64,000 bases of DNA from Paratractidigestivibacter faecalis (GTDB lineage: Bacteria; Actinomycetota; Coriobacteriia; Coriobacteriales; Atopobiaceae), in NCBI RefSeq assembly GCF_003416765.1, contig NZ_QSNG01000001.1, forward strand, positions 832,742-896,741. Direction: 5' to 3'. Numbering within the stretch: the first letter of the stretch is position 1; every line of letters begins with the position of its first letter. A model generated the notes under the pieces. It worked only from the letters and a program-made list of their open reading frames with translations. It did no database searches and had not been told where the DNA came from. Below are positions 27,841-34,326 of this stretch, piece after piece. The translations under genes and the position numbers were made by a program.

Positions 27841-30606
27841 CTAGGCGAGCTTCTGGGCCCCGCCGTTGGACTTGATCTTGGCCTGGGCGGCCGCAAGGCG
27901 GGCGATGGGCACGCGGTACGGCGAGCAGGACACGTAGTCGAGGCCGAGGTCATAGTACATCTGGATGGAGTCAGGGTCTCCGCCCGTCTCGCCGCAGACG
28001 CCGCAGACGATCTTCTCGTTGGCCTGGTGGCCACCCTCGACGCCGAGCTTGACGAGATTGGCGATGCCGGGGTCGAGCGTCTCGAACGGGTTGGCCTTGA
28101 GGATCTTCTTGTTGAGGTACAGCGGGATGAAGGCGCTCTCGACGTCGTCGCGGGAGTAGCCAAAGCCCATCTGAGTGAGGTCGTTGGTGCCGAAGGAGAA
28201 GAAGTCGGCGTACTTGCCAATCTCGTCGGCGGTAACGGCGGCGCGCGGAATCTCGATCATGCAGCCCACGGGGATGTGGAGCTCGACGCCGGTCTGCTCG
28301 GAGACTCCGGCGATGACGCCCTCGATCTGCTCGCGGACAACCTTGAGCTCCTCGACGGTGCCGATGAGCGGGACCATGATCTCGGGCCTGGGGTCAAAGC
28401 CACGCTTCTTGAGGTGCGCGGTAGCGGACGCGATGGCGCGAACCTGCATCTCGGTGAGCTCGGGGTAGACAATGCCCAGGCGGCAGCCGCGCAGGCCGAG
28501 CATGGGGTTGGCCTCCTGGAAGGAGTCCAGTCGGGCGAGAAGGTCACGACGGGCCTTGAGCTGGATGTCGCTCTCGCCACGGTCCTCGGCGTGGGCAAGC
28601 TCGACGGCGTAGTCGCGCGGGTTGTCCAGGAACTCGTGCAGGGGCGGGTCGAGCAGGCGAACGATGACGGTCTTGCCGTCCATGGCCTTGAACATGCCGA
28701 GGAAGTCGTCGGTCTGAACCTTCAGCAGCTGGCCGAGAGCCTGCTGCTTGGCGCCGGTGCGGTCGGCCAGGATGAAGGACTGGATGATCTCCTTGCGGTC
28801 GCCCAGGAACATGTGCTCGGTGCGGTCGAGGCCGATGCCCTCGGCGCCGAAGTCGCGGGACAGCTGGGCGTCCTCGGGGTTGTCGGCGTTGGCGCGGACG
28901 CCGAAGATGCGGCCGCGGGAGGCGTCGCGACGAATCTCGTCGGCCCACTCGAGGATGGTCTCGAGGTCGCCGGTTAGCTCGGGGCGCACCAGGGGCACGG
29001 CGCCCAGGATGACGTCGCCGGTGGTGCCGTTGATGGAGATGATGTCGCCCTCGTGGAGCACGACGTCGGTGCCGGAGACGGTGACCTCCTTGGCCTTGGC
29101 GTCGATCTTCAGGGCCTCGGCGCCGCAGACGCAGGGGGCACCCATGCCACGGGCGATGACGGCGGCGTGGCTGGTCTTGCCACCGTGGCTGGTCAGGATG
29201 CCCTCGGCGGCGACCATGCCCTTGAGGTCGTCAGGCGTGGTCTCCCAGCGGACGAGGATGCAGGGCTGGTCCTTGTTGGCGCAGTGGACGGCCTCCTCGG
29301 CGGAGAAGACGACCTTGCCCACGGCGGCACCCGGGGAGGCGTTCATGCCCTTGGTAAGGACCTTGAAGTCGGCCTTGGGGTCGAACTGCGGGTGCAGGAG
29401 CTGGTCGAGCTGGTCGGGGGCCACGCGCATGACGGCCTCCTCGCGGGAGATGGCGCCCTCGGCCTCGAACTGCATGGCGATGGCGAGTGCGGCCATGGCG
29501 GTGCGCTTGCCCACGCGGGTCTGGAGCATCCAGAGCTTGCCCTGCTCGATGGTGAACTCGATGTCCATCATGTCGTGGTAGTGCTCCTCGAGCTTGACGA
29601 AGATCTCGTCGAGCTGCTTTCCGGCCTCCTCGAGGCCCGGGACCGTCTTGAGGTCGGCGATGGGCTCGGTGTTGCGAATGCCGGCCACAACGTCCTCGCC
29701 CTGGGCGTTGACCAGGAAGTCACCGTAGAACTCCTTGGTGCCGTCGGCGGGGTTGCGGGTGAAGGCGACGCCGGTCGCGGAGGTCTCGCCCTTGTTGCCA
29801 AAGACCATGACCTGGACGTTGACGGCGGTGCCGAGGTCGTCGGAGATCTTGTTCTGCTTGCGGTAGATGATGGCGCGCTCGTTCATCCAGCTGCCGAAGA
29901 CGGCCTCGATGGCAAGGCGCAGCTGCAGCTTGGGGTCCTGCGGGAAGGCGGCGCAGCCATCGACCGTGACCTCGGGGTGGGCCTGGGAGTCGACGTTGAC
30001 GGCGAAGATCTGCTTGAAGGTCTGGGTGAGGTCCTTAAGGTCCTCGGCGGTGAGCTCGGTGTCGAGCTTGACGCCCTTCTCGGCCTTCTTCTCGTTGATG
30101 GCGTCCTCGAAGAGGTCACCTTCGACGCCCATGACGACGTTGGAGAACATCTGGACGAAGCGGCGGTAGGAGTCCCAGGCAAAGCGATCGTTGCCGGTCT
30201 GCTCGATGAGGCCGTTGACGGAGACGTCGTTGAGGCCGAGGTTGAGGACGGTGTCCATCATGCCGGGCATGGAGAACGGGGCGCCGGAGCGGACGGAGAC
30301 CAGCAGCGGGTCCTTGGGATCGCCGAGCTTCTTGCCCATGCGCTCCTCAAGGTTCTCGCGAGCGGCGTCGATCTCGTCCAGGACGCCGTCAGCCCAGGTG
30401 TTGCCGGCGTTTGCGTAGGCAACGCAGGTCTGGCAGGTGATAGAGAATCCCGGAGGAACGGGAAGGCCGATCTTGGCCATCTCGGCAAGGTTGGCGCCCT
30501 TGCCGCCGACGATCCACTTTGCCTGGTCGACGGTCTCGCCGGCAGGCTCGGTGGCGTTGACGCCGTCAATGCCGGCGCCAAAGCGGTACACGTGCTTTTC
30601 AGCCAT
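27841..30606 (-). CDS. ppdK: Pyruvate phosphate dikinase
   Basis: 921 aa from ATG at 30606 (AGGGGAC upstream). PpdK interconverts pyruvate, ATP and phosphate with PEP, AMP and diphosphate, serving glycolysis or gluconeogenesis in anaerobes. The N-terminal ATP-grasp domain begins VYRFGAGIDG...LGGKGANLAEM-like WIVGGKGANLAEMAKIGLPVPPGF. The swivelling domain carries the phospho-histidine in TSHGGKTSHAAVIARGMG with the preceding Thr that PDRP modifies. The C-terminal PEP-binding barrel has GCRLGIVYPELTEMQ, FFSFGTNDLTQMGFGYSRDD and CGVCGETGGDP. A truncated regulator gene lies directly upstream, separated by a strong terminator. Confidence 0.97.
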   Translation of the reverse strand: MAEKHVYRFGAGIDGVNATEPAGETVDQAKWIVGGKGANLAEMAKIGLPVPPGFSITCQTCVAYANAGNTWADGVLDEIDAARENLEERMGKKLGDPKDPLLVSVRSGAPFSMPGMMDTVLNLGLNDVSVNGLIEQTGNDRFAWDSYRRFVQMFSNVVMGVEGDLFEDAINEKKAEKGVKLDTELTAEDLKDLTQTFKQIFAVNVDSQAHPEVTVDGCAAFPQDPKLQLRLAIEAVFGSWMNERAIIYRKQNKISDDLGTAVNVQVMVFGNKGETSATGVAFTRNPADGTKEFYGDFLVNAQGEDVVAGIRNTEPIADLKTVPGLEEAGKQLDEIFVKLEEHYHDMMDIEFTIEQGKLWMLQTRVGKRTAMAALAIAMQFEAEGAISREEAVMRVAPDQLDQLLHPQFDPKADFKVLTKGMNASPGAAVGKVVFSAEEAVHCANKDQPCILVRWETTPDDLKGMVAAEGILTSHGGKTSHAAVIARGMGAPCVCGAEALKIDAKAKEVTVSGTDVVLHEGDIISINGTTGDVILGAVPLVRPELTGDLETILEWADEIRRDASRGRIFGVRANADNPEDAQLSRDFGAEGIGLDRTEHMFLGDRKEIIQSFILADRTGAKQQALGQLLKVQTDDFLGMFKAMDGKTVIVRLLDPPLHEFLDNPRDYAVELAHAEDRGESDIQLKARRDLLARLDSFQEANPMLGLRGCRLGIVYPELTEMQVRAIASATAHLKKRGFDPRPEIMVPLIGTVEELKVVREQIEGVIAGVSEQTGVELHIPVGCMIEIPRAAVTADEIGKYADFFSFGTNDLTQMGFGYSRDDVESAFIPLYLNKKILKANPFETLDPGIANLVKLGVEGGHQANEKIVCGVCGETGGDPDSIQMYYDLGLDYVSCSPYRVPIARLAAAQAKIKSNGGAQKLA

Positions 30607-30842: not shown

Positions 30843-31244
30843 TTACTTGGCCTCGGCGTCCGGGTTGAAGGTGGCGCCGATCGCGTGGCTGGGCTCCTCG
30901 CCGGTGAGCGTGGAGAGGATGGTCACGGCAGGCCCCAGAAGGTCGATGGAGGGAATGCCGCGTCCGTCAAGCTCGCGCCTGATCTCTCGCCTCAGAATGC
31001 CGTTGGCAAACGTGTGGAACACGGCCGTGGGCCTGGACTCGTCGTAGTTCTCGTCAAAGAAGGCGCGGACCTCGTCCACGGACTTGACGTTGGGCACTCG
31101 GACGATCTCCACCGAGCCGTCGCCGAACTGCGCGGCTGCGGCCATGACGACGGCGTTTGCCGTCTCGCCGCGAGAGTCTGACAGGACGTAGATGAGCGGG
31201 ATGATCCCACCGAAGATGTCATCATCCAAGTCAAGCTTAGCCAT
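30843..31244 (-). CDS. Half-length relative of the PPDK/PEP-synthase regulatory protein (N-domain only)
   Basis: 133 aa from ATG at 31244 (GGGGGAACG upstream). It matches only the N-terminal half of the DUF299 regulators, which are usually about 270 aa: IYVLSDSRGETANAVVMAAAAQF is their opening block, followed by IVRVPNVKSVDEV, RPTAVFHTFAN and IDLLGPAVTILSTLTGEEP. The gene stops just before the region where the family has its P-loop (GVSRTSKTP-like), so the kinase and phosphorylase activity on PpdK should be absent. The missing half is not found in any frame of the 235 bases before ppdK. It could be a decay remnant, a regulator that only binds PpdK, or half of a split protein. Confidence 0.8.
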   Translation of the reverse strand: MAKLDLDDDIFGGIIPLIYVLSDSRGETANAVVMAAAAQFGDGSVEIVRVPNVKSVDEVRAFFDENYDESRPTAVFHTFANGILRREIRRELDGRGIPSIDLLGPAVTILSTLTGEEPSHAIGATFNPDAEAK

Positions 31245-31267
31245 GGCGTTCCCCCTGTTTGATCGAT

Positions 31268-31317: not shown

Positions 31318-33414
31318 CTACTTCTTGCGAGAGAGAGCCCCGATGTTCGCAACGTCAGCAAAGACGGATGCGAAGCGGTTGAGAAGCCGCAGGCGGTTCT
31401 CCCTTACCCTAGTGTCCTCGTCCATGACAAGGACGTCCTCGAAGAATCGGTCGATGGGCTCCCTCAGCTCCGCGAGTGCGCTGCAGGCGCCCGCAAAGTC
31501 GGAGGCCTCCACACAAGCCACAACCTTCTGCTCGCCCTGCTCGCAGGCAGAGAGCAGCGCGCGCTCAGACTCGCCGAGAAGAGCCGCGTCCACCTCGCAG
31601 CCCAGGGAGGCGTCGGCGAGGTTGTGGGCGCGGGCGTAGGCCGTGGCAAGATCGTCGAAGAGCTCGGGCTGCTCGGAGCGGGCGGCGTCCAGGGCCTCGG
31701 CGCGGGCCAGGAACTCGGCGGGGTCGATGACGCCCACGGAGGAGACGGCCTCGATGGCGTCGGGAGCCACGCCCTCCTCCTTGGCGATGGCGGCAAGGCG
31801 GCCGAGGAAGAACTTCTCGACGTCGGCCTGTACGGCGGCGGCGTCAAACTCCAGCCCCTGCTCGGCGTAGGAGGAGAGGGCCAGGGCGATGAGGTCCTTC
31901 AGGTGGACCGAGGGCATGGCGCGCAGCATGGCGATGATGCCGATGGCTGCGCGGCGGACGGCGTAGGGGTCGGAGCTGCCGGTGGGCGGCTCGTCGATGG
32001 CAAAGATGCCGCAGGCGGTGTCGAGCTTGTCGGCGATGGCGACGCACTTGCCGCAGGTGCCGCTGGGCAGCTCGTCGCCGGCAAAGCGCGGGCGGTAGTG
32101 CTCGCGGATGGCGGCGCACACGTCGTCGGGCTCGCCGGCGGCCTCGGCGTAGTAGCCGCCCATGACGCCCTGCTGGCTCGTGAACTCGACGACGGCCTGC
32201 GAGACGAGGTCGGCTTTGGCGAGGTGGGCGGCGCGGACGGCGTTGGAGACGCCCTGCTCGTCCTCGCCGGCAGCCTGGGCCACGGCCTTGGCCAGGCGCT
32301 CCATGCGGCCCACCTTCTGGAGCGTGGTGCCGAGCTTCTCCTGGAAGGTGACGATGCCCAGACGCTGGACGAACTCCTCCATCGGGCGCTTGAGGTCCTC
32401 CTCGAAGAAGAACTTGGCGTCGTCAAGGCGCGGGCGCACGACGCGCTCGTTGCCGGAGACCACCGTGGCGGAGACCTTGGGGTCGGCGTTGGAGACGATG
32501 ACGAACTCGCGGGTCAGCTTGCCATAGGCGTCAAAGATCGGGAAGTAGCGCTGGTTAGAGAGCATGGACTCGCAGATGATCTCCTGCGGGACCTTGAGGA
32601 ACTCCTCGTCGAAGGTGCCGACGAGCACCGTCGGCCACTCGCAGAGGTTGACGACCTCGTCGAAGGTGCGCTTGGGGGTGTCCACGCGGCAGCCGGGGCG
32701 GGCGGCCTCGACGTCGGCGATCCCCTTGCGGATGACCTCCTCGCGGCGCTCGGCTGAGAGCACGCAGGCGGCCTCGAGGACGGACTCGTAGGAGGCGGGG
32801 TCGGCGACGACGTGCTCGCCGGGGCCAAGCACGCGGTGGCCGCGGGTGACGTTGCCGCTCGTGACGTCGGCGTAGGTCACCGGCACGACCTCGGAGCCCA
32901 GGAGCGCGCAAATCCAGCGGATGGGGCGCACGAAGGTCTCGTGCTCGGAGCCCCAGCGCTGGGAGCGGTAGTTGGGCCACTCGATGTCGGCGATGACGTC
33001 ATGGGAGAGCTCGGAGAGGATGGGCATGGCGGGCTTGGATGGCACGCTCTTCTGCGCGAAGACGTAGTCGTTGCCGTCCTCGGCGGTGCGGACCTTGAGC
33101 TCGGAGGCCTCGATGCCGCACTTGCGGGCGAAGCCGGCGGCTGCCTTGGTGGGGTTTCCGTCGGCGTCGAAGGCGATCTGGGCCTTGGGGCCGCGCATGA
33201 CCTCGTCGATGGCCTCGGTGGCGACGGCCACGTCGGAGACGATGGCGGCCAGGCGCCTCGGTGAGGAGACCACGCGCACGCTGCCGTGGGAGAGCCCCGC
33301 GGCGTCGAGCCTCTTCTGGACCAGCTTGGGCAGCTGCTTTGCGGCGTTCATGAGCGGCGCGGAAGGCATCTCCTCGCAGCCGATCTCGAGCAGGAAGTCA
33401 AGGGTGTCCGCCAT
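31318..33414 (-). CDS. glyS: Glycyl-tRNA synthetase beta subunit
   Basis: 698 aa. The beta subunit of the alpha2-beta2 enzyme binds tRNA-Gly. The start LDFLLEIGCEEMPSAPL is the family opening; further blocks are LPKLVQKRLDAAGL, RRLAAIVSDVA, MRGPKAQIAFD, PTVLVGTFDEEFLKVPQEII, DAKFFFEEDLKRPMEE and an HD-like region ADKLDTACGIFAI. A C-terminal anticodon-binding-like helical domain follows. ATG at 33414 directly abuts the glyQ stop, so the subunits are translationally coupled. Confidence 0.97.
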   Translation of the reverse strand: MADTLDFLLEIGCEEMPSAPLMNAAKQLPKLVQKRLDAAGLSHGSVRVVSSPRRLAAIVSDVAVATEAIDEVMRGPKAQIAFDADGNPTKAAAGFARKCGIEASELKVRTAEDGNDYVFAQKSVPSKPAMPILSELSHDVIADIEWPNYRSQRWGSEHETFVRPIRWICALLGSEVVPVTYADVTSGNVTRGHRVLGPGEHVVADPASYESVLEAACVLSAERREEVIRKGIADVEAARPGCRVDTPKRTFDEVVNLCEWPTVLVGTFDEEFLKVPQEIICESMLSNQRYFPIFDAYGKLTREFVIVSNADPKVSATVVSGNERVVRPRLDDAKFFFEEDLKRPMEEFVQRLGIVTFQEKLGTTLQKVGRMERLAKAVAQAAGEDEQGVSNAVRAAHLAKADLVSQAVVEFTSQQGVMGGYYAEAAGEPDDVCAAIREHYRPRFAGDELPSGTCGKCVAIADKLDTACGIFAIDEPPTGSSDPYAVRRAAIGIIAMLRAMPSVHLKDLIALALSSYAEQGLEFDAAAVQADVEKFFLGRLAAIAKEEGVAPDAIEAVSSVGVIDPAEFLARAEALDAARSEQPELFDDLATAYARAHNLADASLGCEVDAALLGESERALLSACEQGEQKVVACVEASDFAGACSALAELREPIDRFFEDVLVMDEDTRVRENRLRLLNRFASVFADVANIGALSRKK

Positions 33415-34326
33415 CTAGGCCACCTCCCCCTTCTTGGTAGAGTCATCCGACTTGCCGGCCACCTCGGCGAGATAGCACTCGCAGCAGGCCTTGGCCACGC
33501 TACGGACGCGCAGGATGTAGTTGGCGCGCTCGGTGGCCGAGATGGCGCCGCGGGCGTCGAGGATGTTGAAGGCGTGGCTGCACTTCATGACGCAGTCATA
33601 GGCAGGCAGCGGAAGCTTGCGCTCCAGGCAGGAGTGGCACTCGCGCTCGTAGTCGTCGAACTTCTGGCGCATCATCTCGACGTTGGCGACCTCGAAGTTG
33701 TAGGCGGAGAACTCCACCTCGTTCTCGTGGAAGACGTCGCCGTAGGTCATGGGCGTACCGTCGGGCAGGTAGGACCAGATCAGGTCGTAGACGGAGTCGA
33801 CGCCCTGCGCGTACATGGCGATGCGCTCGAGGCCGTAGGTGATCTCGACCGGGACCGGGTCAACCTCGATGCCGCCGACCTGCTGGAAGTAGGTGTACTG
33901 GGTGACCTCCATGCCGTCCATCCAGACCTCCCAGCCAAGGCCCCAGGCGCCCAGCGTCGGGCTCTCCCAGTCGTCCTCGACGAAGCGGACGTCGTGCTCG
34001 GCGGGGTCCAGGCCGATGGCCTCGAGGGAGCCGAGGTAGAGGTCCTGGGAGTCCGTCGGGCAGGGCTTCAAGATGACCTGGAACTGGTAGTAGTGCTGCA
34101 TGCGGTTGGGGTTCTCGCCGTAGCGGCCGTCGGCGGGGCGGCGGCAGGGCTGCGGGTAGCAGGTGCGCCAGGCCGCGGGGCCGAGGCTCCTCAGGGTGGT
34201 GGCGGTGTGGAAGGTGCCGGCACCGACCTCGGAGTCATACGGCTGCATGACGGTGCAGCCCTTGTCGGCCCAGTAGTGCTCCAGGGCCAAGATCATGTCC
34301 TGGAAGGTAAGCGCGTTTTCGTTCAT
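33415..34326 (-). CDS. glyQ: Glycyl-tRNA synthetase alpha subunit
   Basis: 303 aa catalytic subunit of the tetrameric class II synthetase. [45 protein letters not shown] is the unmistakable opening; [26 protein letters not shown] (motif 2) and [24 protein letters not shown] follow. ATG at 34326 has AGAAGGG upstream. Possession of glyQS rather than the single-chain eukaryote-like GlyRS is a useful taxonomic clue, since many actinobacteria use the latter. Confidence 0.98.

Follow-up and report, generated by a model that had tools for sequence, protein, structure and literature searches.

A free-standing N-terminal domain of the PPDK regulatory protein, conserved beside ppdK in Atopobiaceae, as a candidate non-catalytic regulator

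In the window, meaning the whole stretch of 64,000 nucleotides that was analysed, glyQ, glyS, a short gene and ppdK follow one another in this order on the same strand. The features of this region, listed by position, are the following.

27841-30606, minus strand: ppdK, pyruvate phosphate dikinase, 921 aa, with an intact GGKTSHAA motif (target Thr and catalytic His), from the sequence
30813-30784, minus strand: intrinsic-terminator-like hairpin, 13 bp stem plus T-run, between the short gene and ppdK, from the sequence
30843-31244, minus strand: stand-alone N-terminal domain of the DUF299/PPDK regulatory protein, 133 aa, from the ORF, its PF03618 match (1-109/256), its conserved orthologues and dN/dS
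31158-31181, minus strand: P-loop-like turn SDSRGETA, aa 22-29, from a 48-row alignment of short forms
31245-31257, minus strand: ribosome binding site CAGGGGGAACGCC before the ATG, read directly in the sequence
31318-33414, minus strand: glyS, glycyl-tRNA synthetase beta chain, the upstream neighbour, 73 nt from the short gene, from the sequence
33415-34326, minus strand: glyQ, glycyl-tRNA synthetase alpha chain, from the sequence

The good ribosome site, intact frame and strong terminator that the first-pass annotation had ascribed to the short gene are all found, in the form of CAGGGGGAACGCC followed by an ATG start, an uninterrupted 133-aa ORF, and the hairpin with its T-run. Residues 18-128 of the product align with positions 1-109 of the 256 of PF03618 (E 1.8e-18, 67.6 bits, above the curated cut-off of 23.5 bits), which bears out the earlier statement that only the N-terminal half of DUF299 is matched, and NCBIfam PRK05339.1, matched over positions 8-115 of 270, reaches 62.5 bits where 225 would be needed, half of the protein being missing. 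The product thus terminates at the boundary between the N- and C-domains of DUF299, ahead of the catalytic half. The description of the protein as devoid of its P-loop half holds for the catalytic C-domain P-loop (GxSRTSKTP), the only P-loop that is absent, but not for the P-loop-like turn belonging to the N-domain itself, SDSRGETA, which is kept.

The arrangement of the locus recurs in relatives. At 46 of the 48 positional short loci ppdK lies directly downstream, the gap between glyS and the short gene measures 40-90 nt in most relatives, and a terminator follows the short gene in several of them as in the window. Since this terminator divides it from ppdK and glyS is close upstream, the short gene is probably transcribed together with glyQS. 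The slot between glyS and ppdK is common to short and full-length forms: behind glyQ-glyS, 15 Atopobiaceae relatives carry a full-length regulator, and the full-length regulators outside the family mostly occupy the same slot where the neighbourhood was read. At two loci, L072 (genome G015) and L093 (G018), ppdK has been relocated elsewhere in the genome and the short gene is still found behind glyS.

The first-pass annotation had proposed that the genome be searched for a full-length partner or for a partner supplying the C-terminal half. The genome of the window (2.11 Mb, 6 contigs, 99% complete) contains one single PF03618 match, and hence no full-length partner besides the short ORF. In the same line, a C-half profile built from nine full-length Atopobiaceae members gave no match at E<=1 in any of 26 short-form genomes (that of the window and 25 others, several of them single-contig), while it detected the C-half at once in both full-length control genomes. 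Within the reach of this profile search, the idea of a split gene, with a catalytic half encoded elsewhere and assembling with the short protein, is therefore scarcely credible. As no C-half is present in the genome, the short protein cannot, as the family is understood, carry out the known DUF299 reaction, and neither ADP-dependent kinase nor Pi-dependent pyrophosphorylase activity would be expected of a protein devoid of the C-domain.

The survey of the family Atopobiaceae covered 140 genomes from 35 genus groups, the named relatives including Olsenella and Thermophilibacter. PF03618 is present in 132 of these genomes; about 115 of the 132 hold an N-half-only match and 15 a full-length one (1-256), and nearly all the matches that are not full-length span only profile positions 1-106 to 1-119. 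In terms of size, the 48 positional short orthologues, window included, range from 123 to 138 aa, so that the conservation of the short form in related genomes, which had been put forward as a check, is borne out. Beyond Atopobiaceae, PF03618 is almost always full-length, as recorded in a sister family (119 genomes), in the class (149) and in the phylum (396), with a handful of exceptions that are contig-edge or frame-split. In one sister-family genome (G256:C68:6025-6812) the regulator lies in two overlapping same-strand frames matching profile positions 1-132 and 132-256, as a frameshift or a natural split.

Selection on the short gene was estimated from independent close pairs only, because values from distant species are unreliable (their apparent dS is saturated, with a median ratio of 0.43). 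In these pairs dN/dS runs from 0.018 to 0.115, for example 0.018 for L110/L112, 0.053 for L101/L127, 0.054 for L106/L107, 0.056 for L114/L116, 0.085 for L083/L099 and 0.115 for L094/L125. In identity with the 20-odd relatives nearest to it, the short protein (75-81%) is on a par with its neighbours, GlyS having 69-78% and PpdK mostly 75-76% (up to 91%). Judged by these comparisons, the short form is of long standing and subject to strong purifying selection rather than in decay, in agreement with the earlier claim that recent decay is not at play, since a single locus of constant length is found across Atopobiaceae with dN/dS of 0.02-0.12. The first-pass annotation had itself named two observations that would speak against it, full-length orthologues in close relatives together with random loss, or an absence of selection on the frame. 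Full-length orthologues do exist in some Atopobiaceae, but the pattern is one of clade-wise fixed loss instead of random loss, and the frame is strongly selected. That the gene would be a pseudogene, a truncated remnant on its way out, is consequently hardly conceivable: although half of the family profile is missing, the constant length across the family, the low dN/dS, and the intact ribosome site and terminator all argue against it, and conservation in more than 100 genomes refutes it.

Regarding the history of the short form, 46 of the 48 short forms fall into one group in the N-domain tree (87/76), and the remaining two, L094 and L125, stand among full-length forms. The PpdK tree places the main short-form genomes in one clade on a long stem (the starred clade; 100, 46 rows), with L064 as the single full-length exception, and L094/L125 inside the full-length clade (97). 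Most simply read, the C-domain was lost once at the root of a large clade and apparently again, independently, in one small genus; this second origin (L094/L125) is proposed because both the GlyQ/GlyS and the PpdK trees place it so, whereas in an AU test on the 108-column N-domain alone a common origin for every positional short form was not rejected (p 0.19). In the GlyQ/GlyS tree, full-length forms are more scattered within the short clade than in the PpdK tree, and many independent losses are not claimed since one such fork is weakly supported. As a side observation, L064 (G034) combines a full-length regulator bearing an unusual loop, GMHRTSKTP, with a PpdK of the short-form type, and may be a regain or a late survivor.

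The PpdK sequences keep a trace of the same history. When a segregating position is defined as one at which the residue differs between at least 80% of the short-form and at least 80% of the full-length genomes, 16 positions of PpdK segregate by regulator form compared to none in the GlyS and GlyQ of these genomes, so that PpdK and the regulator have a history in common from which GlyS and GlyQ stand apart. The 16 positions are scattered, none of them near the target threonine, and at these positions the PpdK of L094/L125 has mostly residues of the full-length type. Behind this shared history there could be either co-adaptation or a joint transfer of the linked pair. The target site GGKTSHAA was also considered as a discriminator of regulator form and was dropped, being identical wherever it is readable, with a short or a full-length regulator; as the target threonine is present in all these cases, the PpdK sequence is silent on whether phosphorylation continues.

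To what extent the short protein resembles the N-domain of known regulators was evaluated on an AlphaFold2 model based on 20 close relatives (pLDDT 81.6), which displays a strand-turn-helix element (E17-22, H28-38) around the SDSRGETA turn. Its top PDB match is the maize PDRP with AMP (5d0n), ranked 1 by Foldseek (E 6.7e-4) and superposed at a VIA Z of 11.7 over 117 residues (rmsd 4.0, 24% identity, chain 135-264, the N-domain region), while the next PDB entry has a VIA Z of 8.0. The short protein thus has the predicted fold of the maize PDRP N-domain. Within the turn, none of the 48 short forms departs from S22, D23, G26 and T28, and the consensus reads SD[SA]RG[EK]T. Arg25 is found in 43 of the 48, compared to none of the 15 full-length members in Atopobiaceae and none of 14 outside (this position being mostly Leu in these 29), and Lys27 (RGKT) in 13 of the 48, the window copy being RGET. 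Another arginine, Arg86, is present in 46 of the 48 short forms versus 4 of the 15 full-length Atopobiaceae members. In the maize PDRP structure, AMP is reportedly located at the N-domain loop. A putative phosphate-binding turn that is retained yet altered would fit a domain acting by binding. According to a review (PMC9138534), the N- and C-domains of PDRP have one common fold with phosphate-binding loops (P-loop), the single active site lies in the C-domain, and an allosteric role is proposed for the N-domain. That the two domains have a common fold rests here on this source, as a profile comparison between the short N-domain and the C-domain (A1 versus A2) gave no sequence match (E 0.38).

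Besides the positional copies, the loci that were read contain 15 further N-only DUF299 copies, which form one clade (100/99) and of which none lies beside ppdK. The N-only paralogues L075, L089, L091, L109, L111, L120, L122 and L124 are about 127-134 aa long. These eight belong to one branch, here the glycyl-radical branch, and each directly adjoins a PFL-like enzyme along with a glycyl-radical-enzyme activase; genome-wide the 16 close members of that branch all lie within about 2 kb of a glycyl-radical enzyme, an enzyme that also occurs without the N-only paralogue in about a dozen genomes. In a second group (L076, L079, L081, L082, L087), deoC is adjacent or within about 1 kb in five of five cases. 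A DUF218 protein and a GntR-like regulator are usually also present there, and two of the five have a transaldolase. Since its paralogues adjoin a glycyl-radical enzyme or deoC, the free N-domain is, as far as gene neighbourhoods tell, a recurring unit set beside central-carbon enzymes. One genome (G022) has both an N-only paralogue and a full-length regulator, and the genome of the window has the ppdK-side copy only. Two divergent N-only paralogues, L074 and L085, have other surroundings, in one case a LytTR-type response regulator and a tyrosine phosphatase close by, in the other an alpha/beta hydrolase. Finally, in two full-length regulators, L065 and L067 (G090, G017), the catalytic P-loop is altered to GLSGSAKTP in place of GVSRTSKTP, and the PpdK of these genomes is diverged (66% identity) and located elsewhere in the genome; this is possibly a second route to the loss of catalysis.

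Taken together, these data support the proposal of a functional stand-alone N-domain, given the lack of a partner half, the family-wide conservation and the purifying selection. The reading that we favour, in which we have about as much confidence as doubt, is that the gene encodes the N-domain of a PPDK regulator (DUF299) that has lost its catalytic C-half, works alone and controls PpdK by binding. The short protein is orthologous, by position and sequence, to the full-length regulators, the catalytic half having been lost; it would retain both the adenylate/phosphate site of the N-domain (the SDxxGxT turn, altered by Arg25) and the contact with PpdK, which would be controlled through reversible binding dependent on a nucleotide or on phosphate. 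It would neither phosphorylate nor dephosphorylate the target threonine of PpdK, and in short-form genomes covalent PPDK control would thus have given way to a binding-type control. While the short form itself is, as its sequence relatives indicate, a fixed and selected derivative of the PPDK regulator without its catalytic half, the binding partner and the ligand of the protein are what we infer. For binding to PpdK or to a nucleotide, which the first-pass annotation had suggested, the support is indirect and comes from the history that PpdK has in common with the short form and from the match to the N-domain region of maize PDRP in a structure with AMP.

Some features go against binding to PpdK, namely the terminator before ppdK, the nearness to glyS, the displacement of ppdK in G015 and G018, the scatter of the segregating PpdK positions away from the target threonine, and the possibility that the shared history reflects a linked block transferred together. 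The paralogues beside other enzymes further point to a domain that is not necessarily bound up with PpdK. It could instead be a general adenylate/phosphate sensor whose partner varies by copy, the ppdK-side copy having possibly switched partner and merely inherited its adjacency to ppdK. This is rather unlikely; in its favour are the 16 of 16 paralogues near a glycyl-radical enzyme and activase, the five of five near deoC, and the two genomes in which the short gene and ppdK are apart; nevertheless, 46 of the 48 positional short loci are still directly upstream of ppdK, and PpdK has the history of the short form in common. The proximity to glyS (73 nt in the window), the terminator that follows, and the fact that the short gene remains with glyS where ppdK moves could alternatively make it an accessory of the glycyl-tRNA synthetase GlyQS, probably co-transcribed with it. 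We consider this improbable, because full-length PPDK regulators occupy the same slot across the order, the adjacency to glyS being therefore older than the short form, and no GlyS or GlyQ columns segregate with the regulator form. More improbable still is that the N-domain would have acquired a catalysis of its own and (de)phosphorylate PpdK via its own P-loop. In its favour, the review gives the N-domain the fold of the catalytic C-domain (PMC9138534), Arg25 was gained, and Lys27 makes the turn more Walker-like in 13 of the 48 short forms; however, the GVSRTSKTP loop and HDDG motif of the C-domain are without counterpart in the short protein, the two domain profiles do not match, and the window copy, being RGET, has no lysine.

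Beyond binding to PpdK, a broader and more tentative proposal, which we hold to be possible though doubtful, is that Atopobiaceae made the N-domain into a free-standing, non-catalytic, multi-copy family of regulators, in which one copy would bind PpdK in replacement of covalent control and others would serve either the glycyl-radical enzyme with its activase or deoxyribose-phosphate aldolase, the adenylate/phosphate signal that they read being in every case the same. On the non-catalytic N-domain of PPDK regulators, the review (PMC9138534) says no more than that an allosteric role is proposed. Here, evolution appears to have removed the kinase half and kept the other half under selection in more than 100 genomes, which opens the function of the N-domain itself to assay in isolation from that half. 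If PpdK is regulated by binding, this would be a non-covalent mode of PPDK control, of which none is described in the part of the literature that is searchable, and the sister copies by the radical and aldolase enzymes would then be portable regulators of metabolism, forming a small family.

In comparison with known systems, no description of an N-domain-only DUF299 form was found in the searchable part of the literature mentioning DUF299. The short form resembles the PPDK/PEP-synthase regulatory protein (DUF299, PF03618, PRK05339; PSRP of E. coli, PDRP1 of maize) in N-domain sequence, predicted fold and SDxxGxT turn, and its full-length relatives in the same genomic slot adjoining ppdK. It differs from the full-length proteins by the absence of the catalytic C-domain (P-loop GxSRTSKTP and HDDG motif), by its 133 aa compared to about 280-300 aa, and by the Arg in its N-domain turn. 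The N-domain of maize PDRP (5d0n, a structure with AMP) is the best structural match of the predicted model, over 117 residues with N-domain numbering, but constitutes one half of a bifunctional enzyme, whereas the Atopobiaceae short form stands alone. Finally, by analogy only, the N-domain of HPr kinase/phosphorylase is presented, in the review (PMC9138534), as the poorly understood and possibly allosteric front half of a bifunctional kinase/phosphorylase.
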